Source: Acidimicrobiia bacterium (GTDB lineage Bacteria; Actinomycetota; Acidimicrobiia; Acidimicrobiales; AC-14). Taken from it: 60,574 nt of DNA. The DNA lies in contig JAHFUR010000016.1 of NCBI GenBank assembly GCA_023264995.1, positions 1 through 60,574 on the forward strand, in the 5' to 3' direction. A model generated the notes under the pieces. That model was not told where the DNA came from and did not search any database. It was given only the letters and a program-made list of their open reading frames with translations. Of this stretch, positions 31,406 through 60,574 are shown piece after piece. Both the position numbers and the translations under genes were made by a program. Position 1 is the first letter of the stretch. Every line of letters begins with the position of its first letter.

Positions 31406-32575
31406 CTAGCGGTCGATGTCCCCGAGGATGAAGTAGAGGCTGGAGAGGATGGTGATGATGTCGGGAACGTAGACGCCCTTGAGCAGCCACGGCGTGATGG
31501 ACACGTTGTGGAACGACGCCGAGCGGATCTTGCAGCGGAACGGGCCGAGGCCGCCCTGGCTCACCACGTAGTACCCCATCTCACCGAGCGGGTTCTCGGT
31601 GTGGGCCCAGGCTTCGCCGGCGGGCACCTTGATGATCCGGGGCACCTTGGCCTGGATCGGCCCCGACGGCAGGCCGTCGAGGAGCTGGTCGACCATCAGG
31701 GTGGCCTCGCGGGTCTCCTGGAGACGGACCCAGTACCGGGCGAAGGAGTCGCCGTCGGGATGGGTCCAGACCTTCCAGTCCAGCTCCTTCCACGCCAGCG
31801 GCGACGGGGCATCGCGGCGCAGGTCCCAGTCGACCCCGCTGGCCCGGATGTTGGCACCCGACAACCCGTAGGACAGGCCGACATCGGCCGGGATGACACC
31901 GACGCCCCGGGTGCGGGCCTCGAAGATCTCGTTGCCCATCAGGAGCTGCTCGAGCTCGTCGCAATACCCACGGATGCGCCGCATGGCGTCCTTGGTCTCG
32001 GCGATCCAGCCCTTGGGCAGGTCGTCCTTGATACCGCCGATACGGTCGAAGTTGGGGTGGAAGCGGCCGCCGGTGGCCGATTCGATCAGGTTGAGGACGT
32101 ACTCCCGGTCGCGGAAGGCGAAGAACACCGGGGTGATGGCCCCGAGCTGCACGCCCATCTCGCCGATGAACAGGGTGATGTTGGCGATGCGGCTGAGCTC
32201 GAAGAACAGGGTGCGGATCCACTGGGCCCGGGGCGGGGCCTCGATCTCCATGAGGTCCTCGGCGGCCAGGATGAACGGCACCTCGTTGGCGAACGAGGAC
32301 AGCCAGTCGATCCGGTTGATGAGGGTGGTGACCTGGGGGAAGGTGCGGACCTCGGTGAGCTTCTCGTAGCCGCGGTGCATGTAGCCGCACACCACGTCGG
32401 CCTTGACGACCTGCTCGCCGTCGAGGCGGGCGACGATGCGCAGCGTGCCGTGGGTGGCCGGGTGCTGGGGGCCGAGGTTGAGGGTCATCTCCTCGGTCTG
32501 CAGCTCGACGTTGAGCCGGGCGTCGGCCGCCTGGGAGGCGATGTAGGAGATGCGCTGCTGGTCGGTGACGGCCAT
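31406..32575 (-). CDS. nuoD: Complex I subunit NuoD (11-subunit operon)
   Basis: The 389-residue protein is the 49-kDa-type subunit lining the quinone site. It begins at ATG 32575, overlapping the nuoC stop (ATGA), and has LNLGPQHPATHGTLRIVARL, CGYMHRGYEKLTE, RANITLF-like SRIANITLFIGEMGVQLGAI and the C-terminal YFILGDIDR. The [NiFe] cysteine pairs of hydrogenase large subunits are absent, so it is not a hydrogenase. GPQHPATHG contains the His thought to help protonate quinone. Confidence 0.95.
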   Translation of the reverse strand: MAVTDQQRISYIASQAADARLNVELQTEEMTLNLGPQHPATHGTLRIVARLDGEQVVKADVVCGYMHRGYEKLTEVRTFPQVTTLINRIDWLSSFANEVPFILAAEDLMEIEAPPRAQWIRTLFFELSRIANITLFIGEMGVQLGAITPVFFAFRDREYVLNLIESATGGRFHPNFDRIGGIKDDLPKGWIAETKDAMRRIRGYCDELEQLLMGNEIFEARTRGVGVIPADVGLSYGLSGANIRASGVDWDLRRDAPSPLAWKELDWKVWTHPDGDSFARYWVRLQETREATLMVDQLLDGLPSGPIQAKVPRIIKVPAGEAWAHTENPLGEMGYYVVSQGGLGPFRCKIRSASFHNVSITPWLLKGVYVPDIITILSSLYFILGDIDR

Positions 32576-33255
32576 CAGCCCTCCCCGTCGCCCTTGTAGG
32601 TGGCGGGGAACTGCTCCACGTCGACCAGGCCGGGCCACGGCTTGACCTCGCGGGCCAGCAGCGGGAAGTCCTTGCGCATCGGGAAGCCTTCGAACTCGCC
32701 CGGGAGGTAGAGGTGGGTGAGGTTGGGGTGACCGGTGAAGTCGAACCCGTACATCTCCCACGTCTCCCGCTCGCACCAGTCGGCGCCCGGGTAGGCCGTG
32801 ATCCACGACTCGATGCGAGGGTTCAGGTCGTCGAGGTCGGCCTTGAGCGTGACCCCGATGTGGCGGATGGTGGAGTACAGCCGGGCCAGCACCTGGAAAC
32901 GGGTGTCGCCGCCGGCGTACCCGCTCTGGATCCCTTCGATCACCGGCTCCTCGACGACCTCCTCGGCCGGCAGGGCGGCCTCGTCGTCGGGGTCGGGCGC
33001 CGGCCCCTCGATGACCTTGGGGTTGGGCCAGGTGTGGGGCATCCAGTCGATGCCCGACAGGTAGCAGAAGTAGTCGAAGCCCATGGCCTTGCAGGCCTCG
33101 GCGGCCCGCAGCCAGGCGTCGGGACGCACCCGCACCCAGAGGTCGCCGCTGCGGATGTGGGACCCCACGACGGCGGCCCCGAGCCGGGTGGTCAGATCCT
33201 CGAGGAGCGCCTTCTGGCGGTCGTCGGTGGCCGTGGTCGAGTCAGCGGACGACAA
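32575..33255 (-). CDS. nuoC: Complex I subunit NuoC with acidic insert (11-subunit operon)
   Basis: The 226-residue protein carries the 30-kDa signature [20 protein letters not shown] and the C-terminal [11 protein letters not shown]. Between the N-terminal domain ([16 protein letters not shown]) and the main fold is an insert of about 35 residues rich in Asp and Glu ([20 protein letters not shown]) that I do not expect from the family. It starts inside the end of nuoB, with a 14-base overlap, and its stop overlaps the nuoD start. Confidence 0.93.
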
Positions 33256-51241: not shown

Positions 51242-52546
51242 TCAGCGGTCGACTTCGCCCATGATGGGGTCGATGGTGGAGATGACGGCCACCGCGTCGG
51301 CAATGAGGGCGCCCCGGATCATGTGGGGCAGGGCCTGGAGGTTCACGAACGACGGGCCGCGGATGTGCATGCGGTACGGCTTCGAGCTCCCGTCGGACAC
51401 CATGTAGCAACCGAGCTCGCCACGGGGGGACTCGACGGCCACGTAGACCTCGCCCTCGGGCACCCGGAAGCCCTCGGTGAAGATCTTGAAGTGGTGGATG
51501 AGCGCCTCCATCGACTCGTCGATGCGGGCTCGCGGTGGCGGGGTGACCTTCTTGTCCTGCACCCGGTAATCGCCCTGTGGCATCTTGTCGAGGATCTGGT
51601 GAATGATCTTGATCGACTCGCGGATCTCGTTCAGCCGGATGGCGTACCGGTCGAAGGTGTCGCCGTAGCTGCCCACGATCACGTCGAAATCGACCTGGTC
51701 GTAGTAGAGGTACGGCTGGTCACGGCGCAGGTCCCAGGGCATGCCGGTCGACCGCAGGATGGGCCCGGTCACGCCCAGGGCCAAGCACTCCTCGGTGGTG
51801 ATGACGCCGACGCCCTGGGTCCGCTCCTGCCAGATGGGCTGGCCGGTGAGCAGGGTGTCGTACTCGTCGAGGCGCTGCGGGAAGACCTCGAGGATCTTGA
51901 GCACGTCGTCGCGCCAGCCCTCGGGAAGGTCGACGGCGACCCCACCCGGGCGGATGTAATTGTGGTTCATCCGCAGGCCGGTGACCTTCTCGAAGAAGGC
52001 CAGGATCATCTCCCGCTCCCGGAACCCGTAGATCATCATGGACACGGCGCCGAGGTCCATGCCGTTGGTGGCCAGCCAGACCACCTGGGACGACATCCGG
52101 TTCAGCTCGCACATGAGCATGCGGATCCAGGTGGCCCGGGGCGGCAGCTCGATGTCGAGCAGCTTCTCCGTGGCCAGGCTGAACACCAGCTCGTTGAAGA
52201 GCGGGGAGATGTAGTCCATCCGGGTGGTGTTCGTGGGCCCCTGGAGGTACGTCAGCTCCTCACCGGTCTTCTCCATGCCGGTGTGGAGGTAGCCCATCAC
52301 CGGCTTGCAGCGGAGCACGGTCTCACCCTGGAGCTCCATCATCACCCGGAGCACGCCGTGGGTGCTGGGGTGCTGGGGCCCCATGTTGATGATCATGGTG
52401 TCGTGGTCGGTGGGCACCTCCTCGATACCCTCGGGCAGGTGGGGGATCCGCAGCACGGCGCCGACCTCGCGGAGGTACTCGACGCCGGCGGTGCGCGACT
52501 TCGGGAGCAGCTCCTGGTCGCCCTCGGAGGTTTCGGCGACGGTCAT
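51242..52546 (-). CDS. nuoD: Complex I subunit NuoD (14-subunit enzyme)
   Basis: The 434-residue protein has MIINMGPQHPSTHGVLRVMM, GYLHTGMEKTGEELTYLQGP, TNTTRMDYISPLFNELVFSL and CELNRMSSQVVWLATNGMDL, ending ISTIDPIMGEVDR. It forms the quinone pocket with NuoB. It is longer than the NuoD of the first operon (389 residues). It is the last gene of the operon; nuoE, its normal neighbour, lies 4.7 kb away beyond the importer genes. Confidence 0.96.
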   Translation of the reverse strand: MTVAETSEGDQELLPKSRTAGVEYLREVGAVLRIPHLPEGIEEVPTDHDTMIINMGPQHPSTHGVLRVMMELQGETVLRCKPVMGYLHTGMEKTGEELTYLQGPTNTTRMDYISPLFNELVFSLATEKLLDIELPPRATWIRMLMCELNRMSSQVVWLATNGMDLGAVSMMIYGFREREMILAFFEKVTGLRMNHNYIRPGGVAVDLPEGWRDDVLKILEVFPQRLDEYDTLLTGQPIWQERTQGVGVITTEECLALGVTGPILRSTGMPWDLRRDQPYLYYDQVDFDVIVGSYGDTFDRYAIRLNEIRESIKIIHQILDKMPQGDYRVQDKKVTPPPRARIDESMEALIHHFKIFTEGFRVPEGEVYVAVESPRGELGCYMVSDGSSKPYRMHIRGPSFVNLQALPHMIRGALIADAVAVISTIDPIMGEVDR

Positions 52547-52559
52547 TCGGCGTGCTCGG

Positions 52560-53072
52560 TCATCGTGCGGGTGGTGCCCCCTTGAACTGGACCGGGATGC
52601 GGCCGAACCCGAAGTCCTTGCGCAGCGGGTGGCCCTCCCAGTCGTCCGGCATGAGGATGCGGGACAGGTCGGGATGGCCGGTGAAGACCACCCCGAACAT
52701 GTCGTAGGTCTCCCGCTCCATGGCCTCGGTGCCGGGGTGGAGCTGGAAGATCGACGGCAGGGCCGGATCGGCCTCGGGCACCTGCACCCGGACCCGGATG
52801 CGCCGGCGGGTGTCGGTGGCCAGCAGGTTCACGACGACCTCGAAGCGCTCCCGTGTGACGCCCGCCGGCAGCTCACGCTCCATGTACGGCTGGTAGTCGG
52901 CCCCAGTCAGGTCGACACAGACCCGGTAGCCGTCGTCGTAGAGCAAGCCGACGAGGTCGAGGTAGTCGGCCCGCTCGGGGAACACCACCAGCTGGCCACG
53001 CGACAGCGCCGACGGCGCGCCGTGGACCAGTTCCGCCTCGTCCTCAGCAGGCTGGCCGTCGGGCTCGTCCAC
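52560..53072 (-). CDS. nuoC: Complex I subunit NuoC (14-subunit enzyme)
   Basis: The 170-residue protein from GTG 53072 has the 30-kDa signature MERETYDMFGVVFTGHPDLS and the C-terminal WEGHPLRKDFGFG. The acidic insert found in the NuoC of the first operon is absent. It ends 13 bases before nuoD. Confidence 0.93.
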   Translation of the reverse strand: MDEPDGQPAEDEAELVHGAPSALSRGQLVVFPERADYLDLVGLLYDDGYRVCVDLTGADYQPYMERELPAGVTRERFEVVVNLLATDTRRRIRVRVQVPEADPALPSIFQLHPGTEAMERETYDMFGVVFTGHPDLSRILMPDDWEGHPLRKDFGFGRIPVQFKGAPPAR

Positions 53073-53111
53073 ACCCCGACACTAGACCGCCGGCGAGGAG
53101 CGGGCGGCGAC

Positions 53112-53653
<542 letters not shown>

Positions 53654-53654
<1 letters not shown>

Positions 53655-54115
53655 CAGGCCGCTCCCTGCTCGACGGTGGGTGCTCGCCCTTCGGAGCCGA
53701 CCCGCCGCACGGTGGAGTCGGTGGTCCGCCGAGCGTCGACGAGCGGGCTCAACACCTTGGCCGGCCCCCAGTTCAGGGCGCCGTTGCCGATCAGGTAGAT
53801 GAACGACACGAACACGGCGACGGCGAAGATCACCATCTCCCAGAGGCCGAAGGCACCGAGCCGGCGGAAGACCACGGCCCAGGGGTAGAGGAAGATGATC
53901 TCGATGTCGAAGACGATGAAGATCATGGCCACCAGGTAGAAGCGCACCGGGAAGCGCTCCGGCGGCTCCCGGTCGGGCACGATGCCGCACTCATAGGGCG
54001 CCGACTTGGCCAGCGTGGGGTGCTTGGGGCCGAGCAGCTTCGACGCAATGATGGACATCCCGGCGAACAGCGTCGCCAGGATCAGCATCACCAGGAGGGG
54101 CAGGTACTGGGCCAT
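53654..54115 (-). CDS. nuoA: Complex I membrane subunit NuoA (14-subunit enzyme)
   Basis: The 153-residue subunit has three membrane helices, the loop [20 protein letters not shown], and [20 protein letters not shown] with the acidic pair of the E-channel. A hydrophilic tail of about 35 residues ([20 protein letters not shown]) is longer than usual. It lies 16 bases after an unassigned membrane protein that ends the cytochrome operon, so complex I and the quinol oxidising complex appear cotranscribed. Confidence 0.95.
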
Positions 54116-54131: not shown

Positions 54132-54890
54132 CTACTGCTTGGCCGCGGCCTGGAGGGCCATGAGCTCCTTGTCGCGGGTGTGCAGCTGGTAGACGAGCAG
54201 CCCGAACAGCAGCCCGCAGGCGATGGTGAACACCGCGGGGTTCAAGCGCAGGCTGCCCAGGTCGCGCACCATCACGACCGACACCGGCGTGGCGCCGGGA
54301 TCGACCTTGGGCTTCGGTGGTGCGGCCCCCGGTATGGCTTCCTGGTGGGCCACGGCCTGGACCTGGATCACCAGGTAGTGGACCCGGTGGAAGAGGTTGA
54401 GCGGCCGGAAGTTGAAGACACCGAACGGCCCGTAGGTGTTCCCGCCCTTCTCGACGGCCGCCACCGGGAGGAAGTCGGCGGAGCTCTTGAACGTGCCACC
54501 GCCCTTGCTCCCGCCGGTCAGGGCGTTGTCCGAGATCGGCAGGGCGTCGGCCACGGCCGGGTCGGCGAGGTCGAGCTTCTTCCAGTCGAGCGGGTACCCG
54601 TCGAGGATCGTGCCACCGACCTGGCCGGGGTCACCCTGGACCTGGAACTTCGGCACCCAGGTCGGGGCCTTCCCCTTCGGGCCGATGCCGTAGACCCACC
54701 AGACCGAGCCGATGATGACCAGGAAGCCGGTGAGGCCGGCGGCGGCGGTCTGGAAGCCCAACCGGCCGCCCAGGTTGGTGCCCAGGATCAGGAAGCCCGA
54801 GCCGCACAGGATGACCACGGCGGTCAGGACGTAGAGCCCACCTCGGACCTGCGGGTTCCAGGTGAGGCCGAGGAGCAGAGTGTGCAGCAT
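54132..54890 (-). CDS. Unassigned membrane protein between the cytochrome and nuo genes
   Basis: The 252-residue protein has two N-terminal membrane helices (YVLTAVVILCGSGFLILGTN and FQTAAAGLTGFLVIIGSVWW), a soluble region of about 150 residues starting YGIGPKGKAPTWVPKFQVQG, and a C-terminal helix (PAVFTIACGLLFGLLVYQL) with a short charged tail. No cofactor motif is seen. Its ATG overlaps the stop of the diheme cytochrome gene (ATGA), so the two are translationally coupled. I infer an accessory subunit of the quinol:cytochrome c reductase. Confidence 0.75.
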   Translation of the reverse strand: MLHTLLLGLTWNPQVRGGLYVLTAVVILCGSGFLILGTNLGGRLGFQTAAAGLTGFLVIIGSVWWVYGIGPKGKAPTWVPKFQVQGDPGQVGGTILDGYPLDWKKLDLADPAVADALPISDNALTGGSKGGGTFKSSADFLPVAAVEKGGNTYGPFGVFNFRPLNLFHRVHYLVIQVQAVAHQEAIPGAAPPKPKVDPGATPVSVVMVRDLGSLRLNPAVFTIACGLLFGLLVYQLHTRDKELMALQAAAKQ

Positions 54891-55894
54891 CAGAGTGTCC
54901 GCTCGTAGTTGACGATGGCCTTGATCTGGTCGTCGGTGAGCATGTCGCCGAAGAATGGCATGCGGCCGGAGCTGATGCCGCGCTGGCCGTACTGCTTGCC
55001 GACCTCGACCGTGTCGGTGACCCAGCTGATCTGCTGCGCGATGGTGGGGAACTGCCGGAGCGTGGCGCCGCCGGTGAGGTCAGGGCCCAAGGCGCCGCCG
55101 CCCTGTACTCCCGGCTTGCCATAGGACGCACCCTGGGTGTGGCACCGGGCGCAGAACGCCTCGAAGAGGGTCTTCCCGTCGGTGCCGTACTGCGCCAGGT
55201 TGGCGTCCTGCACCTGCTTGGGGTCGAGCTTGATGCTGTCCAGGTACGCGATGAGGTCCGACAGTTGCTGGTCGTTCAGGGCGCCACCACCCTTGATGCC
55301 CCAGGGGGGCATGGGCGTGCCGGCCCGGCCATAGGTGAGGATGAAGAGCACCTCGTCGGGCCGGTACCGCAGCATGACGGTGTTGAGCGGCGGCGCCGTC
55401 CACTGGACCTGCTGGGGCAGGGCGTCAGGGTTGGCCGGGTCGGTCAGGGTGAAGGCGGCGACCCCGCCGACGCCCTTCTTGCCGTGGCAGTTCTCGCACC
55501 CGTAGTGCGGCTCACGCGGCGTCGGCGGCTCCCCGGGCGAGGCCTGGAAGTACCACTCCCCCCGCTTGATGGCCTCCTCGGCGAAGTAGGCCTTGCCCCG
55601 GTCGAGGCCGGCGCCCGTCTGGCGGAACGGCTCCCGCACCCAGTACACGGGCAGGGCGACCGCGGGGATGGCCAGGGTGGCAAACGCCCACCAGAGGTAC
55701 TTGGTGAGCCGCTTGCCCTCCATGCCCTCGTCGTCGTAATAGAGCTTGCGGTTGGGAGCGGTGACCAGCTCCGTACCGGGCTCGTAGGTGCGCTTGGACG
55801 CGCTGAGCAGGAAGATGACCCAGCCGACGAGCATGGCCAGGACGACGGCGAGGCCGATCCGCTGCTGTGAGGACACTGCGAGAAGTTGGGTCAC
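54890..55894 (-). CDS. Membrane-anchored diheme cytochrome c
   Basis: About 334 residues. Two membrane helices (IGLAVVLAMLVGWVIFLLS near 12-31 and LWWAFATLAIPAVALPVYWV near 67-86) precede two c-type domains. The first heme site is CENCH at 133-137 and the second is CARCH at 248-252; candidate Met ligands are in TPMPPWG and SGRMPFFG. It lies one base after the Rieske gene and takes the place of cytochrome f or c1, receiving electrons from the Rieske centre. The start is GTG 55894; GTG 55870 is possible. The frame stays open upstream only as an antisense shadow of the Rieske gene. Confidence 0.9.
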   Translation of the reverse strand: MTQLLAVSSQQRIGLAVVLAMLVGWVIFLLSASKRTYEPGTELVTAPNRKLYYDDEGMEGKRLTKYLWWAFATLAIPAVALPVYWVREPFRQTGAGLDRGKAYFAEEAIKRGEWYFQASPGEPPTPREPHYGCENCHGKKGVGGVAAFTLTDPANPDALPQQVQWTAPPLNTVMLRYRPDEVLFILTYGRAGTPMPPWGIKGGGALNDQQLSDLIAYLDSIKLDPKQVQDANLAQYGTDGKTLFEAFCARCHTQGASYGKPGVQGGGALGPDLTGGATLRQFPTIAQQISWVTDTVEVGKQYGQRGISSGRMPFFGDMLTDDQIKAIVNYERTL

Positions 55895-55895
55895 A

Positions 55896-56768
55896 TCAAT
55901 GCTCGGACGCGGCACCGATGCAGTGGGGGCCTTCGGCTTCCTGGCCCGTGGTGTTGGTGCCGATCGGCGGGCCGGGGATGACGGCCTTGGTGTCGACGAC
56001 GAGGATCCCACCGTCGACCGAGGCGGCGAAGCGATCGAGGCCTCGCGGGGCCGGGCCACCCTTCTTCTCGCCCACCCGGTTGTACTGCGACCCGTGGCAC
56101 GGGCATTCGAACCATTGGGAGGTCTTGCACCACGGGACCCGGCACCCGAGATGGACGCACTTCTGGTACAGGGCCACCACGCCGTCGTTGTACCCCTCGA
56201 CCACGGCCGTGTAGGCCAGGATCTTCTTGGCCTTCTCGACCCCCTCCTTGGGGTAGGGGTTGATGTAGAGACGGCCGGCGGCCAGGTAGAAGGGCTCCTT
56301 CTTGGTGGCGATGTCGGCCAGGATGTCGTCGATCTTGCCCACTCGGATCTTCGAGCCGAACCCACCCGACAACGACGGCCAGAGCATGGCGACGCAGGCG
56401 GCGCCGAAGCCCGAGAGGGTCAGGGCGAAGGTGGTGACGATGCCCCGGTTCAGCACCTGGCGCCGGGTCACGCCCAGGGCCTCTTCGTCGAGGGGGGCGG
56501 GGAGGGGCGCCGGCGGAACATCGGGGGTGGCGACCTGGGAGCCCCGCCGGTCGAGGGCGACGGTGCGCTCGAGCTCGCGGCCGGACGCGGACGCGTGACC
56601 GACGGGCACGGGCAGGTTGGCCGTGGCCGCCTCGGCCCGTTCCTCGATGCTCGGCGCGGCCTCGGCGGCGCGCTCCGCGTCGCGCCGGCGGGCCGTCGCG
56701 AACACGAAGACGAACATCAGGCCCAGGAGGGCCACGATCGCCAGAAGGAAGATGGTGCTGCTGTCCAA
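55896..56768 (-). CDS. Rieske [2Fe-2S] protein of a quinol:cytochrome c reductase
   Basis: The 290-residue protein has an N-terminal membrane helix (TIFLLAIVALLGLMFVFVFA), a long polar linker, a TRRQVLNRG segment before a second helix (TFALTLSGFGAACVAMLW), and the Rieske fold with CVHLGCRVPWC and FECPCHGSQYN. These give the two Cys and two His ligands plus the disulfide pair. The RR before the second helix fits Tat export of the folded cluster domain. Two helices before the cluster domain recall actinobacterial QcrA, which has three. Confidence 0.93.
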   Translation of the reverse strand: MDSSTIFLLAIVALLGLMFVFVFATARRRDAERAAEAAPSIEERAEAATANLPVPVGHASASGRELERTVALDRRGSQVATPDVPPAPLPAPLDEEALGVTRRQVLNRGIVTTFALTLSGFGAACVAMLWPSLSGGFGSKIRVGKIDDILADIATKKEPFYLAAGRLYINPYPKEGVEKAKKILAYTAVVEGYNDGVVALYQKCVHLGCRVPWCKTSQWFECPCHGSQYNRVGEKKGGPAPRGLDRFAASVDGGILVVDTKAVIPGPPIGTNTTGQEAEGPHCIGAASEH

Positions 56769-56791
56769 CAGTGCTCCTAAGAAGTCCGGCT

Positions 56792-57553
56792 CTAGAGGTC
56801 GAAGAACACGCCGTCACGCCACGGGAACGTGAAGTTGAACCCAGGGCCACGGAACAGCGTGCCGATGATCACGAGGACGGCCCAGAACATGAAGAAGAGG
56901 GTGAAAAGGGAGATGGCGAACTTGCGGTCTTCCGGCTTGCTGCTCGGGTTCTTGTCGATGTACGGAGCCAGCATGAGGGCGAAGATGCCGATACCGGGGA
57001 TGGTCACCCCGGCCACCATGGGGTGGAACATGGTGAGGAGCTCCTGGAGGCCCAGGAAGTACCAGGGGGCCTTGGAGGGGTTGGGGGTGAAGTTGAAGTT
57101 GGCCGCGGCCAGGAACGGCGCGTTGACCATGGCCGAGAACACCAGCAGGAAGGCGCTGCACGCCAGGCAGGCGATGAACTCGCCGATGAGCAGGTGGGGC
57201 CAGGTGTGCACCTTGTCGGTGGGGGTGGCCTTGACGTCCTGGATGGAACCGGCCTTGACGACAGTGAGGAGCCGCTGGGTGTGACCCTCGGGGCCCTTGG
57301 CCACGGGGGCCGGGGCCGTGGCGACCGCGGTGGCCGCGGCCGCAGTGGCCGCCGCGCCGGTGGTGGCCGGCGTGGCCGCCGCCCCGCCTCCCCCGCCCGT
57401 GCGGGCCAGCAGGCCGGCGGGGATCTTGCTGCCGTCGTCGGCCGTGGCCTCGCCGCCGGCGGCTGGCGCGGCCCCGCCGCCGGCGGGGGGCGCGCCCAAT
57501 GCGGCCCGCCGCTCTGCCGACCGCTTGAGCAGGTGCTCGGGGACTTCCGTCAC
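56792..57553 (-). CDS. Cytochrome b C-terminal-domain protein (subunit IV-like)
   Basis: The 253-residue protein starts MTEVPEHLLKRSAERRAALG, then has about 70 residues of Ala/Gly/Pro-rich linker. The membrane part has three helices (LIGEFIACLACSAFLLVFSA, VAGVTIPGIGIFALMLAP and ISLFTLFFMFWAVLVIIGTL), as in subunit IV of cytochrome b6f. No heme His ligands are expected or seen. At the quinol site the usual PEWY is APWY (residues 162-165). The N-terminal 20 residues are almost the same as those of the monoheme cytochrome at 59679. It follows the b6-like gene by 22 bases. Confidence 0.9.
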   Translation of the reverse strand: MTEVPEHLLKRSAERRAALGAPPAGGGAAPAAGGEATADDGSKIPAGLLARTGGGGGAAATPATTGAAATAAAATAVATAPAPVAKGPEGHTQRLLTVVKAGSIQDVKATPTDKVHTWPHLLIGEFIACLACSAFLLVFSAMVNAPFLAAANFNFTPNPSKAPWYFLGLQELLTMFHPMVAGVTIPGIGIFALMLAPYIDKNPSSKPEDRKFAISLFTLFFMFWAVLVIIGTLFRGPGFNFTFPWRDGVFFDL

Positions 57554-57575
57554 AGTGACCTCCCTGCGAGATGCA

Positions 57576-58382
57576 TCACAGCGGCCCGGAGATGCCGCCG
57601 TCCTTGCGGACGCGCCAGAAGTGGATGGCCATGAAGATGACGATGACGAACGGCAACATCAAGACGTGCAGCACGTACCACCGCAGCAGGGTCTCGCCGC
57701 CGATCTCGACGCCACCGAGAAGGACGAAGCGGACTTGCGATCCGAAGACGGGCGTGTAGCCCATCATGTTCGTGCCCACCGTGACCGCCCAGAGGGCCAG
57801 CTGGTCCCACGGGAGCAGGTACCCGGTGAAGGAGAGCAGCAGGGTGAGGGTGAGGAGGATCACGCCGATGACCCAGTTGAACTCGCGGGGCGGCTTGTAG
57901 GCGCCGTGGTAGAAGACCCGCGACATATGTAAGAACACGGAAAGCACCATGAGGTGCGCGGCCCATCGGTGCATGTTGCGGACCAGCAGGCCGAAGGTGA
58001 TCGAGGTTTCCAGCGTCTGGATGTCGTTCCACGCCTGGGCCGTGGTCGGCCGGTAGAAGAACATCAGGAAGATGCCGGTCACGGTCAGCAGGAGGAAGAG
58101 GAAGAAGGACAGCCCGCCCAGGCAGAGGGTGTAGCTGACCTTGACCGCGTGGCGCTTCACCTTCACCGGGTGCAGGTGGTAGATGAGGCTGTTCATCACC
58201 ACGTAGGACCGGTTCCTGGGGCTGTCGGTGTAGCCCTTGCGGAAGATCGAGCCGGGGCGGAAGATCGAGGCCCACGCCTGCGAGCCGCGGACCTTCTCGC
58301 CCACCTCGGCCAGGCGCTCGGCGGGCGTGGCTCGGTGGCCGTTACCGTTGCCGTTCCCGTTCCCGGTCATTCGCCTTGCCAT
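57576..58382 (-). CDS. Cytochrome b6-like diheme cytochrome b
   Basis: The 268-residue protein has four membrane helices. Heme ligands are H138 and H152 (MHRWAAHLMVLSVFLH) and H239 and H254; the second pair has 14 intervening residues, the b6-type spacing. Cys87 in YTLCLGG lies where cytochrome b6 has the Cys that holds the extra heme c. It ends RKDGGISGPL, as b6 does. The N-terminus has a Gly/Asn repeat (NGNGNGNGH). It oxidises quinol with the Rieske protein. The 88-base leader carries four copies of a short repeat. Confidence 0.94.
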   Translation of the reverse strand: MARRMTGNGNGNGNGHRATPAERLAEVGEKVRGSQAWASIFRPGSIFRKGYTDSPRNRSYVVMNSLIYHLHPVKVKRHAVKVSYTLCLGGLSFFLFLLLTVTGIFLMFFYRPTTAQAWNDIQTLETSITFGLLVRNMHRWAAHLMVLSVFLHMSRVFYHGAYKPPREFNWVIGVILLTLTLLLSFTGYLLPWDQLALWAVTVGTNMMGYTPVFGSQVRFVLLGGVEIGGETLLRWYVLHVLMLPFVIVIFMAIHFWRVRKDGGISGPL

Positions 58383-58389
58383 GCCTGCC

Positions 58390-58444
58390 CTTCTTGTGAC
58401 ACCGCTTCTCTCGACACTGCTTCTCGGGACAGTTCTCTAGACAG
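58390..58444. repeat. Four-unit short repeat in the cytochrome b leader
   Basis: Units start at 58390 (CTTCTTGTGACACCG), 58405 (CTTCTCTCGACACTG), 58420 (CTTCTCGGGACAG) and 58433 (TTCTCTAGACAG). The first 14 bases are identical to a unit between tRNA-Thr and tRNA-Met at 8172. The array lies between the ferredoxin stop and the cytochrome b start, on the same message. Confidence 0.7.
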
Positions 58445-58470
58445 CCCGGGGCCCTGACGCAAATCCACGG

Positions 58471-58884
58471 CTAGAACCGCATCCCGTAGGCATAGCCGTG
58501 CTTCTCGTCGCGCTGGTGCACGTCGCCGTCCTTGGACGCCAGGCCGGCCTTGCCCATGATGATGACGCCGGTCGGGCAGCGGTCGACGCAGAGCCCGCAG
58601 CGGGTGCAGACGTCCTCGTCGACGATGAACACCACGTGGTCGTCGGGGTCGTCGCCCGGCTCGCTGGTGTTCAGTGCCTCGGAGATGCTGTCCGTGGAGA
58701 GCATGTGGATGCACTTCCAGGGGCAGATGTCGACGCAGCCCTCGCACATGATGCACTCGGACTGGTCGATGTGGAGGAACTGCTTGGGCTTGACCGCCTT
58801 GGCCAGGTAGTCGGTCTCGACCTCCTGGAGGGCGTAACCCCCGGGGAAGGACGGCATGGGCGGGTTGGCATCGTTCTTGGCCAC
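58471..58884 (-). CDS. Two-cluster [4Fe-4S] ferredoxin
   Basis: The 137-residue protein has two cluster motifs: CIMCEGCVDICPWKC and CTRCGLCVDRCPTG, about 45 residues apart. A 40-residue N-terminal part (GGYALQEVETDYLAKAVKPK) and a C-terminal tail with KHGYAYGMRF are outside the clusters. It has no export signal, so it is cytoplasmic or on the inner membrane face. Location inside the cytochrome b operon suggests that it serves the respiratory complexes, possibly as electron donor to the complex I that lacks NuoEFG; this is inference. The second motif lacks one Cys of the full 7Fe pattern only by position and looks intact. Confidence 0.88.
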   Translation of the reverse strand: MAKNDANPPMPSFPGGYALQEVETDYLAKAVKPKQFLHIDQSECIMCEGCVDICPWKCIHMLSTDSISEALNTSEPGDDPDDHVVFIVDEDVCTRCGLCVDRCPTGVIIMGKAGLASKDGDVHQRDEKHGYAYGMRF

Positions 58885-58945
58885 AGCTATGCCTCCCGCT
58901 CAGAGGGCCGCTCGGGCCTCGGCTCAATCGCTCCGCTCATTCGCG

Positions 58946-59407
58946 TCACGCCTTCCTGAGGATGGCTCGGCCGAAACGGGAACGGGCCTCCTCGACATCG
59001 CCCGGCTTCTTCCGCCCACGCTTCTGCCAGACCGACCAGAGGTACATCTGCCCGCCGAGGAACACGATGTAGAGCACGCTGGCGATGATGTCGCGGATGG
59101 CCTGGTAGTTGATGAGGATCCGGCCCGTGCCCCCGAGGGTCTTGGCCTTGACGCCCCAGACCACGCCGGCCGAAGAGATGCCGACCAGCAGCTTGTCGGG
59201 GCGCCAGAGCAGCTCGTTGTCGGCGTACGCCAGCCACTGGTGGGGGGCGACGCCGTAGGCCACGAGCATGAGGGCGAAGGCGAACGTGCCCCCCAACATG
59301 GCTTCGCCCCAGGTGACGGGGGTGCCGATCGGCCGGCGGGAGCCGACGAAGAGGCAGATCCCGACGCCAACGAACAGGACGAGCAACGAACTGACGAACG
59401 CAGCCAC
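58946..59407 (-). CDS. Unassigned small membrane protein heading the cytochrome b operon
   Basis: The 153-residue protein from GTG 59407 has a strong ribosome site (GGGAGGT seven bases upstream). It has three or so hydrophobic segments: SLLVLFVGVGICLFVGS, GGTFAFALMLVAYGVAPHQW and IIASVLYIVFLGGQMYLWSV, then a basic tail. No cofactor motif is seen. It is the first gene of the operon for ferredoxin, cytochrome b, Rieske and cytochrome c, so a role as an extra subunit or assembly factor is likely. I do not recognise the family. Confidence 0.72.
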   Translation of the reverse strand: MAAFVSSLLVLFVGVGICLFVGSRRPIGTPVTWGEAMLGGTFAFALMLVAYGVAPHQWLAYADNELLWRPDKLLVGISSAGVVWGVKAKTLGGTGRILINYQAIRDIIASVLYIVFLGGQMYLWSVWQKRGRKKPGDVEEARSRFGRAILRKA

Positions 59408-59678: not shown

Positions 59679-60311
59679 GTGACGGAGGTTCCCGAGTACC
59701 TGCTCGAGCGCTCGCGGCAACGCCGAGCCGCTCTCGGCCTGCCTGGTGGCGCGGCCCCTGCCGGCGGAAGCGCCGCGGCGCCGGTGGCCGCCGCATCGGC
59801 CGCCCCGGCCGATGTCGCCTCGGCCGCGCCCCAAGCCGCCGCGGCAGCCACGGCGACTGCGGTCATCACCGAACCCGTGCCGGAGGTCCCCGTCTCGACC
59901 GGGCCCCGCAGCGGGATCCCCGTGTGGATGATGCCGGTCCTGCTCGCCCTGCCGTTCTGGGCCGTCGTGTACATGGGCGCGTTCGCGGCACCGAAGGCCG
60001 CCGCCGGTCCGCGCACCGGCGCCCAGATCTATGTGGCCGCCGGCTGCGGGGCCTGCCACGGCGCCACCGGCGGCGGCGGCGTCGGCCCCAAGCTGGCCGG
60101 CGGCGAGGCCAAGCTCACCTTCCCCAACGAGGCCGACCACGTGGCCTGGGTCACCGAGGGTTCAGCCGCCTCGAAGGGCAAGTCCTACGGTGACCCCAAC
60201 CGGCCGGGCGGCGCCCGCCCGCCGGCGTCGGGCGGCATGCCCTCGTTCAAGGGCCAGCTCACCCCGGAGGAGATCCTCGCCGTGGTCCAGTACGAGCGGG
60301 ACAGGCTCTAG
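59679..60311 (+). CDS. Membrane-anchored monoheme cytochrome c
   Basis: The 210-residue protein starts MTEVPEYLLERSRQRRAALG, continues with about 55 residues of Ala/Pro-rich linker, then one membrane helix (VWMMPVLLALPFWAVVYMGA near 82-101) and a c-type domain with heme site CGACH at 123-127 and a probable Met ligand in GGMPSFKG. The C-terminus (LTPEEILAVVQYERDRL) resembles the end of the diheme cytochrome of the neighbouring operon. It likely carries electrons from the b6c-type complex to a terminal oxidase. The cytoplasmic N-terminal peptide is nearly the same as in the subunit-IV-like protein. Confidence 0.88.
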   Translation: MTEVPEYLLERSRQRRAALGLPGGAAPAGGSAAAPVAAASAAPADVASAAPQAAAAATATAVITEPVPEVPVSTGPRSGIPVWMMPVLLALPFWAVVYMGAFAAPKAAAGPRTGAQIYVAAGCGACHGATGGGGVGPKLAGGEAKLTFPNEADHVAWVTEGSAASKGKSYGDPNRPGGARPPASGGMPSFKGQLTPEEILAVVQYERDRL

Positions 60312-60323
60312 ACGGCCGGGCAG

Positions 60324-60574
60324 ACCGTCGCGGAAGGCGGCGCCAGGGGCACCGTCGCGGAAGGCGGCGCCAGGGGCACCGTCGCGGAAGGCGGCGCCAG
60401 GGGCATGGTCGCTGGAGGCGGCGCCAGGGGCACCGTCGCTGAAGGCGGCGCCAGGGGCACCGTCGCTGAAGGCGGCGCCAGGGGCACCGTCGCTGAAGGC
60501 GGCGCCAGGGGCACCGTCGCTGAAGGCGGCGCCAGGGGCACCGTCGCTGAAGGCGGCGCCAGGGGCACCGTCGC
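60324..60574. repeat. 27-bp tandem repeat running off the window
   Basis: Nine full 27-base units start at 60324, 60351, 60378, 60405, 60432, 60459, 60486, 60513 and 60540; a tenth is cut by the window end. Units 1-3 share one form, unit 4 differs (ATGGTCGCTGGA at its start), and units 5-9 share a third form. All six frames can stay open across it; one minus-strand frame repeats VPLAPPSAT and one plus-strand frame repeats VAEGGARGT. It begins 12 bases after the cytochrome stop codon. Whether it is coding cannot be decided here. Confidence 0.85.

Follow-up and report, generated by a model that had tools for sequence, protein, structure and literature searches.

The window analysed here, a 60,574-nt stretch of contig from an Acidimicrobiia bacterium, encodes at 54132-59407 on the reverse strand a widespread and functionally suggestive variant of b6-type complex III, in which the gene of a two-cluster ferredoxin stands directly upstream of a split cytochrome b. 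The gene set points to a normal complex III for which this ferredoxin (P0006) would be a dedicated redox partner on the cytoplasmic side, wired to a heme cN at C87 of the b6-like protein (P0001) and E125 of the subunit IV-like protein (P0002), a reading given a probability of roughly 0.6. The association of the ferredoxin and b6 genes suggests direct electron exchange between the enzyme and the low-potential carriers of the cell.

That the ferredoxin gene is kept beside cytochrome b in relatives, as the reading in the first-pass annotation of this DNA requires, is borne out in a sample of 296 genomes of the phylum, the window's genome included. Window-type b6 genes, that is, genes for P0001-like cytochromes b6, occupy 99 places at E<=4.2e-88 in 98 of these genomes, the window being counted among the 99; three fragmentary window-type places (one in G013 and two in G170, E 3e-80 to 2e-56) fall outside this set. 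A P0006-like ferredoxin lies directly upstream of b6 and on the same strand in 92/99 places, its match ending -4 to 189 bp upstream of b6, and the order of the two genes is stable across the window-type loci. Such a ferredoxin was found beside none of 16 ordinary b6 loci, a hand-picked part of the weaker b6 matches of the same phylum, 40-45% identical to P0001. The pairing is thus far above chance (92/99 versus 0/16), and the 92/99 adjacency led to the rejection of a stray neighbour as the explanation. Both complete cluster motifs are present in 96/96 stand-alone ferredoxin rows (duplicates included). The window genome has one ferredoxin of the P0006 type, the other match being the window's own NuoI. 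A ferredoxin replacing an NADH module absent from complex I was also rejected, as NuoF and NuoG are in the window (Pfam).

Among the seven places without the ferredoxin, the b6 match of G242 starts with the very first base of the contig, the ferredoxin of G025 is on another contig, and G058 has no such ferredoxin match listed, the position of its contig end being unchecked. The remaining four belong to family f52 (G118, G172, G151 and G129). These four genomes retain b6, subunit IV, Rieske and cytochrome c genes, and their best ferredoxin match genome-wide has an E of 2.7e-6 to 1.3e-4, whereas other sampled f52 genomes have the ferredoxin beside b6.

Subunits and candidate cofactor sites

The seven genes are co-oriented, with intergenic gaps of at most 88 bp, and Pfam identifies five of their products (P0006, P0001, P0002, P0003 and P0004). 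From 59407 down, the order is:

58946-59407, reverse strand: P0007, membrane protein with three predicted transmembrane helices, first gene of the run
58471-58884, reverse strand: P0006, 2x[4Fe-4S] ferredoxin of 137 aa (Pfam)
57576-58382, reverse strand: P0001, cytochrome b6-like protein of 268 aa (Pfam Cytochrome_B, E 7.9e-46)
56792-57553, reverse strand: P0002, subunit IV-like protein of 253 aa (Cytochrom_B_C, E 4.7e-8)
55896-56768, reverse strand: P0003, Rieske [2Fe-2S] subunit (Pfam)
54890 to about 55894, reverse strand: P0004, diheme cytochrome c with a hydrophobic N-terminal part, GTG start at 55894 likely
54132-54890, reverse strand: P0005, membrane protein with two N-terminal transmembrane helices, a strand-rich domain and a C-terminal helix

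This gene content agrees with the split b6c-type complex first proposed, since Cytochrome_B and Cytochrom_B_C are separate proteins, and the Rieske gene, the two-cluster ferredoxin and the two further membrane proteins lie at or near where they had been placed. The clusters of P0006 are framed by Cys 44/47/50/54 and 93/96/99/103, in a sequence without a long hydrophobic stretch. The heme b ligands of P0001 are His 138, 152, 239 and 254, with the b6-type spacing of 14 residues between H239 and H254 that had been noted before. In a phmmer search of the PDB, cytochrome b6 chains come top, and in the four alignments printed (2zt9, 6rqf, 1q90 and 1vf5; E 6e-49 to 5e-48), C87 pairs with Cys35 of cytochrome b6, free of gaps from residue 82 to this position. 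The Cys claimed at the heme cN position therefore stands up to alignment, which makes C87 a candidate covalent heme cN site at the inner quinone site. It is Cys in 87/87 ferredoxin-linked loci and in the window (duplicates removed), and in the 4/4 f52 loci lacking the ferredoxin.

P0002 combines an Ala-rich N-terminal extension, a WPHLLIGE stretch with E125 and the motif APWY at the quinol-oxidizing (Qo) site; its phmmer search against the PDB gave no match at E<=0.01. Aligned by eye with one gap, E125 falls at what we take to be the Phe40 position of subunit IV, and is presumed to occupy a heme cN ligand position. The Rieske motif of P0003, CPCHGSQY, is b6f-like with Ser and Tyr present, GSQY being presumably also the motif of cytochrome b6f. 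P0004 has two CxxCH motifs (CENCH and CARCH) and matches Cytochrome_CBB3 and Cytochrom_C of Pfam, and the cytochrome f model finds no match among the eight window proteins scanned, in line with the initial description of a diheme cytochrome c in place of cytochrome f.

A sister set with fused ferredoxin domains, and published relatives

Cytochromes b of a second type, sharing 51-57% identity with P0001, have a ferredoxin domain directly upstream in 12/12 places; one 52% identical place (G010:C5, E 1.7e-60) stands outside the twelve. In the seven loci fetched, these domains sit within mechanical open reading frames (ORFs) of 605 to 793 aa. The combination of a ferredoxin domain next to b with a GltD-like part (tblastn), called GltD-Fd here, is found in all twelve second-type places and in 28 b loci under six phylum labels. 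The three flavoproteins scanned with Pfam all contain Fer4_20, Pyr_redox_2 and a C-terminal Fer4, and the two compared with NCBIfam come closest to GltD-like NAD(P)-binding families, below cut-off (456 and 474 versus 516 bits).

Genome contigs were scanned with patterns common to both b groups, which yields tallies rather than frequencies, in which species may recur among loci. Among the matches listed, at least 80 named loci comprise 46 with a stand-alone ferredoxin and 21 with GltD-Fd, the rest being 4 with GltD elsewhere, 8 with neither and 1 at a contig edge. The GltD-Fd loci among these matches are labelled Chloroflexota (10), Actinomycetota (6), Acidobacteriota (2), Planctomycetota (1, Scalindua), Verrucomicrobiota (1) and Pseudomonadota (1, probably mis-binned). 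Of the listed stand-alone loci, 42 are of Actinomycetota, three are unassigned, and one is in a metagenome-assembled genome (MAG) labelled Acidobacteria, 88% identical to the window protein, that looks mis-binned. The MAG labels of L128, L141 and L095 (Bifidobacterium breve, Acidobacteria and Steroidobacteraceae) clash with closely similar Acidimicrobiia or Chloroflexota loci, and these are probably mis-binned contigs. In L105, L116, L164 and L165, labelled Acidobacteriota apart from L105 (Bacillota), the GltD match begins about 5.6-6.2 kb downstream of where the b match starts, and after it comes another protein with CxxCxxCxxxC motifs.

A profile built from the 96 stand-alone ferredoxins scores 42-75 bits on 32/32 GltD-type ferredoxin domains, and 41.6 (window NuoI) and lower on seven other two-motif proteins of the fetched DNA. 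The two ferredoxin types are likely akin beyond their general fold, though the kinship is not overwhelming for each member, and their common position beside cytochrome b is a stronger argument for it than the profile scores. In a tree of 84 cytochromes b built by a quick method (ferredoxin rows thinned to 22 plus the window, L141 omitted), 68 rows bearing an N-terminal motif split from the 16 ordinary b6 rows at 100*, both b groups lying inside this one superclade. The stand-alone-ferredoxin rows and the f52 rows form one group (95*). Several long branches were flagged, among them L132, L113 and L146; the Scalindua locus L132 and the window both lie inside the 68-row superclade, and the tree holds no Kuenenia sequences. 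The GltD-Fd label changes 4 times on the tree, 3 of them forced by starred branches, so that its gain or loss is not datable. The place of the window type among groups where GltD-Fd is common suggests that the flavoprotein may have been lost in it.

The motif of the superclade, about N-x-[FL]-[LY]-H-x-[HY]-P-[VTA]-[KR] with L113 and L151 deviating at the second His, is YHLHPVKVKRH in P0001, with H69, H71 and H78. H69 is His in 28/28 GltD-Fd, 4/4 'GltD elsewhere', 87/87 ferredoxin-linked, 4/4 f52 and 9/9 other motif rows. In ordinary b6, the N-terminal segment is shorter and the motif absent, with His in the H69 column in 5/16. H69 was rejected as a proven ligand of the published extra heme b at the dimer interface, as its distance to R259 of the RK pair is 190 residues versus a published anammox His-to-Arg spacing of 204, a difference of 14.

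For subunit IV and Rieske, eight loci repeating counted places (L070-L077) were removed and only readable loci counted. Glu stands at WPxLxxxE in 101/101 superclade rows with Cys87, in 0/13 of those that have Arg, Tyr or Phe instead, and in 9/9 of those with Gly. The link between Cys87 and Glu thus appears strong, yet not strict, and 'Cys87 if and only if Glu' was rejected as a rule because of the Gly rows. Of the 28 GltD-type loci, 19 lack Cys87 and still have the ferredoxin domain beside b; those of Actinomycetota without Cys are also without Glu (0/12 readable rows), and resemble dedicated NAD(P)H producers or consumers more closely. The Rieske Ser occurs in 67/67 readable ferredoxin-linked rows (Tyr in 65 of them), 24/26 GltD-Fd, 4/4 'GltD elsewhere' and 9/9 other motif rows and the single readable f52 row, versus 0/12 readable ordinary b6 rows, which all have Gly. 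At the Qo site, the printed superclade segments read APWY, with AAWY in L119. Nine ordinary b6 rows of the phylum have PEWY, the other seven having no readable segment (one printed segment is spurious).

The window complex resembles cytochrome b6f of cyanobacteria and chloroplasts in its split b6 and subunit IV, its His spacing of 14 and the Cys35/C87 pair. It differs in having a diheme cytochrome c and no cytochrome f match, APWY for PEWY, Glu for Phe40 of subunit IV (as we number it), the N-terminal motif and the in-operon 2x[4Fe-4S] ferredoxin. A ferredoxin-plastoquinone route has long been discussed for cytochrome b6f, and electron entry from ferredoxin to the extra heme of b6-type complexes has been debated for years for photosynthetic cyclic electron flow. 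The dedicated ferredoxin gene and the GltD-fused sister set would offer a non-photosynthetic system for a genetic test of this question. The b6c complexes of Firmicutes (Bacillus QcrABC, heliobacteria) are of the split b6 type, with a Cys for the extra heme, and work with menaquinone; we know of none with an in-operon ferredoxin. Actinobacterial QcrCAB (bcc) acts as a menaquinol:cytochrome c oxidoreductase with a diheme cytochrome c, and differs by its long unsplit b with Met in the column of C87. The contrast drawn at first with QcrCAB thus holds for the split, whereas the window type is not exceptional, occurring in 98/296 genomes of the phylum.

P0001 passes the NCBIfam cut-off for Geobacter ExtP (NF040969, 308.6 versus 290), as does a Ktedonobacterales b. 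The name ExtP was rejected for P0001, since P0002 scores well short of the ExtQ cut-off (46.2 versus 150 bits) and the ext genes for porin, rhodanese and multiheme proteins are not seen in the window run; ExtO of that cluster is a Rieske protein (excerpt of PMC5877670). A split b6-type complex III in Nitrospina and an anammox-like operon are described in PMC3578206. The anammox Rieske/cytochrome b complexes Kuste4569-4574 and Kustd1480-1485 come with NAD(P) oxidoreductases, according to PMC12954380. In its AlphaFold3 models, the FeS clusters of the NAD(P) oxidoreductase lead from cytochrome b on the negative side, and heme cN is ligated by a Glu said to lower its potential. These complexes and that of the window have in common a membrane part of b6-like and subunit IV-like proteins, the Rieske Ser, and a Glu at the heme cN site, modelled in the anammox complexes and presumed in the window. 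In the anammox complexes, the clusters are on the NAD(P) oxidoreductase and the cytochrome c is multiheme, whereas the window has a ferredoxin alone and a diheme cytochrome c. No GltD-like NAD(P) flavoprotein with an FeS domain was found in the window gene cluster, where the ferredoxin domain stands alone. The Scalindua locus L132, of the same superclade, has GltD-Fd, Rieske and a b-subunit IV protein. Together with the published anammox system, the window complex may belong to a larger family of ferredoxin-wired complexes, of which it would form one branch. None of the literature matches listed, as far as their excerpts go, describes b6c genes of Actinomycetota accompanied by a stand-alone ferredoxin, which does not show that such an arrangement is absent from print.

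Role of the complex and direction of electron flow

The window genome also encodes a canonical unsplit QcrB (QcrB_actin 644 bits, cut-off 500) at locus L046 (G000:C24:2735-5833), a contig end that also carries a QcrA-like ORF (249 bits versus a cut-off of 275). This QcrB is 34-36% identical over the shared part to P0001, which itself scores 118 bits against the same cut-off of 500, below curated actinobacterial QcrB. The b6 rows closest to the window's include G113 and Aquihabitans sp. G128 (Acidimicrobiales), in keeping with the actinobacterial origin first suggested. Window-type b6 is present in 15/21 sampled relatives of the same order, and in 11 of these 15, including the single-contig G031 and G113, no other cytochrome b matches at E<=0.001. 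As the only cytochrome b match of these genomes, it must feed cytochrome c in ordinary respiration. The window-type complex is therefore probably a housekeeping complex III rather than the specialised ferredoxin-to-quinone path of the first-pass annotation.

The complex would work as a menaquinol:cytochrome c oxidoreductase of the b6c type with the usual Q-cycle, its split cytochrome b carrying hemes bP and bN. A third, covalent heme, cN, would lie at the inner quinone site, held by C87 of b6 and with E125 of subunit IV close to its iron or bound to it. P0006, probably bound, would contact the N-terminal segment of b6 near heme cN and carry electrons one at a time between heme cN/bN and the low-potential pool of the cytoplasm. 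The window genome has a menaquinone synthesis gene, MenD (429 bits, cut-off 244), and two places with a 2-oxoacid:ferredoxin oxidoreductase (POR) gamma domain. If the ferredoxin is a redox partner, inward flow is the somewhat favoured direction, given the retention of heme cN and its Glu. Electrons would then pass from reduced ferredoxin by heme cN to menaquinone, and the ferredoxin would be re-oxidised without NAD(P).

Both the Rieske motif and the anammox model are also compatible with the opposite direction, which appears unlikely here. Quinol oxidation would bifurcate, with the high-potential electron going to Rieske and cytochrome c and the low-potential one via bP and bN to ferredoxin. 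This would be the counterpart, in the window type, of the scheme by which the anammox complexes are proposed to generate NAD(P)H (PMC12954380). The Rieske Ser, with its near-constant Tyr, speaks for it by its presence in every readable ferredoxin-linked row and in no ordinary b6 row. Ser raises the Rieske potential: a 130-mV drop is quoted for a yeast Ser mutant, and two anammox Rieske proteins with Ser are at +303/+335 mV (same excerpt). This quinol-driven direction is conceivable where a b6f-like Rieske occurs together with menaquinone, as bP could then be very low, and the sister set has a flavoprotein on its ferredoxin. However, the Ser is also found in the canonical QcrA of the window genome (CHQS), and a complex that is the only cytochrome b match in 11/15 relatives must serve ordinary respiration. 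The retained heme cN and Glu would moreover allow an easy leak to menaquinone at the inner site, and leakage there is called a far larger problem by the anammox paper itself (excerpt of PMC12954380).

The ferredoxin could instead be a soluble carrier or a maturation protein, for instance for heme cN attachment, exchanging no electrons with cytochrome b. Heme attachment to Cys needs a reductant, the ferredoxin is a separate gene product with no long hydrophobic stretch, and the f52 loci without it keep C87, all of which would suit such a role. This is nonetheless quite improbable, since 19/28 GltD-type loci have the ferredoxin domain and no Cys87, so that the domain does not serve heme cN solely, and its fusion to a GltD-like flavoprotein implies electron transfer. 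That the ferredoxin docks on the cytoplasmic face as a structural or redox-sensing element regulating the complex would agree with its dispensability in f52 and the single stable gene order, but is highly improbable given the full cluster motifs of all stand-alone rows and the sister fusion of a related ferredoxin domain with an FAD-type domain in one chain.

Several points weigh against a ferredoxin wired to heme cN. A gene neighbourhood does not prove binding. The four f52 loci keep C87, H69, Glu and the core genes with no such ferredoxin beside b6, which makes the partner dispensable. The three Ktedonobacterales rows, as well as the Dehalococcoidia rows, have the motif with no ferredoxin found beside b. 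Of two Ktedonobacterales genomes searched, one has the domain elsewhere in a 613-aa ORF (E 2.6e-15; GltD part not checked) and the other has no ferredoxin match better than E 1e-5. The Gly87 rows loosen the link between Cys and Glu, the stand-alone profile scores the weakest GltD-type ferredoxin domains hardly higher than NuoI, and Chloroflexota-type GltD complexes keep Cys and Glu (9/9), so that heme cN alone does not mark direction.

The wired ferredoxin can be extended, at about even odds, to a wider proposal. A complex III with a ferredoxin port would be standard in a large part of Actinomycetota, as one branch of a family of Rieske/cytochrome b complexes that spans phyla and is wired to ferredoxin, the flavoprotein having been lost or never gained in the window branch. 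Heme cN would be the junction of the Q-cycle and the ferredoxin pool, and the enzyme would either act in respiration as a ferredoxin:menaquinone reductase or bifurcate electrons from quinol so as to reduce ferredoxin. In Acidimicrobiia and relatives, the balance of ferredoxin may then depend on complex III, and not on FNR-type enzymes alone.

Membrane proteins and neighbouring genes

The two further membrane proteins, P0005 and P0007, have no match at E<=0.1 in Pfam or NCBIfam, and a fold search with their AlphaFold2 (AF2) models found no solved fold at E<=0.001. The P0007 model (pLDDT 84.8) has helices at 2-24, 33-64 and 101-128, and that of P0005 has a pLDDT of 87.6. P0007 homologues occupy the same place in most window-type loci compared; none was found in the 1.5-kb flanks of L024-L029, L031 and L032, and the L030 flank has one that is 25% identical. 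P0005 has mostly weak homologues at the same position in many window-type loci.

Two features flank the run:

51242-54115, reverse strand: NDH-1 genes NuoA, B, C and D, identified by eye
59679-60311, forward strand: P0008, divergently transcribed monoheme cytochrome c

The NuoA-like gene begins 16 bp past the run, and NuoA-D are perhaps in one transcript with the complex III genes, outside the complex itself. The window holds two separate NuoC/NuoD pairs. That at 51242-53072 adjoins the complex III genes (by eye), and that at 31406-33255 lies beyond the NuoF-G-H-I-K-L-M genes (Pfam). P0008 is a possible electron acceptor. It has an N-terminal peptide in common with P0002, VTEVPE-LL-RS--RRAALG (57467-57553, reverse strand, and 59679-59777, forward strand; 76% identical), for which these two are the sole genome matches at E<1e-3, and this peptide could be a docking tag for a common partner. 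A tandem array of a 27-bp unit (9.3 copies, 96% matches) covers 60324-60574 and extends to the end of the window.

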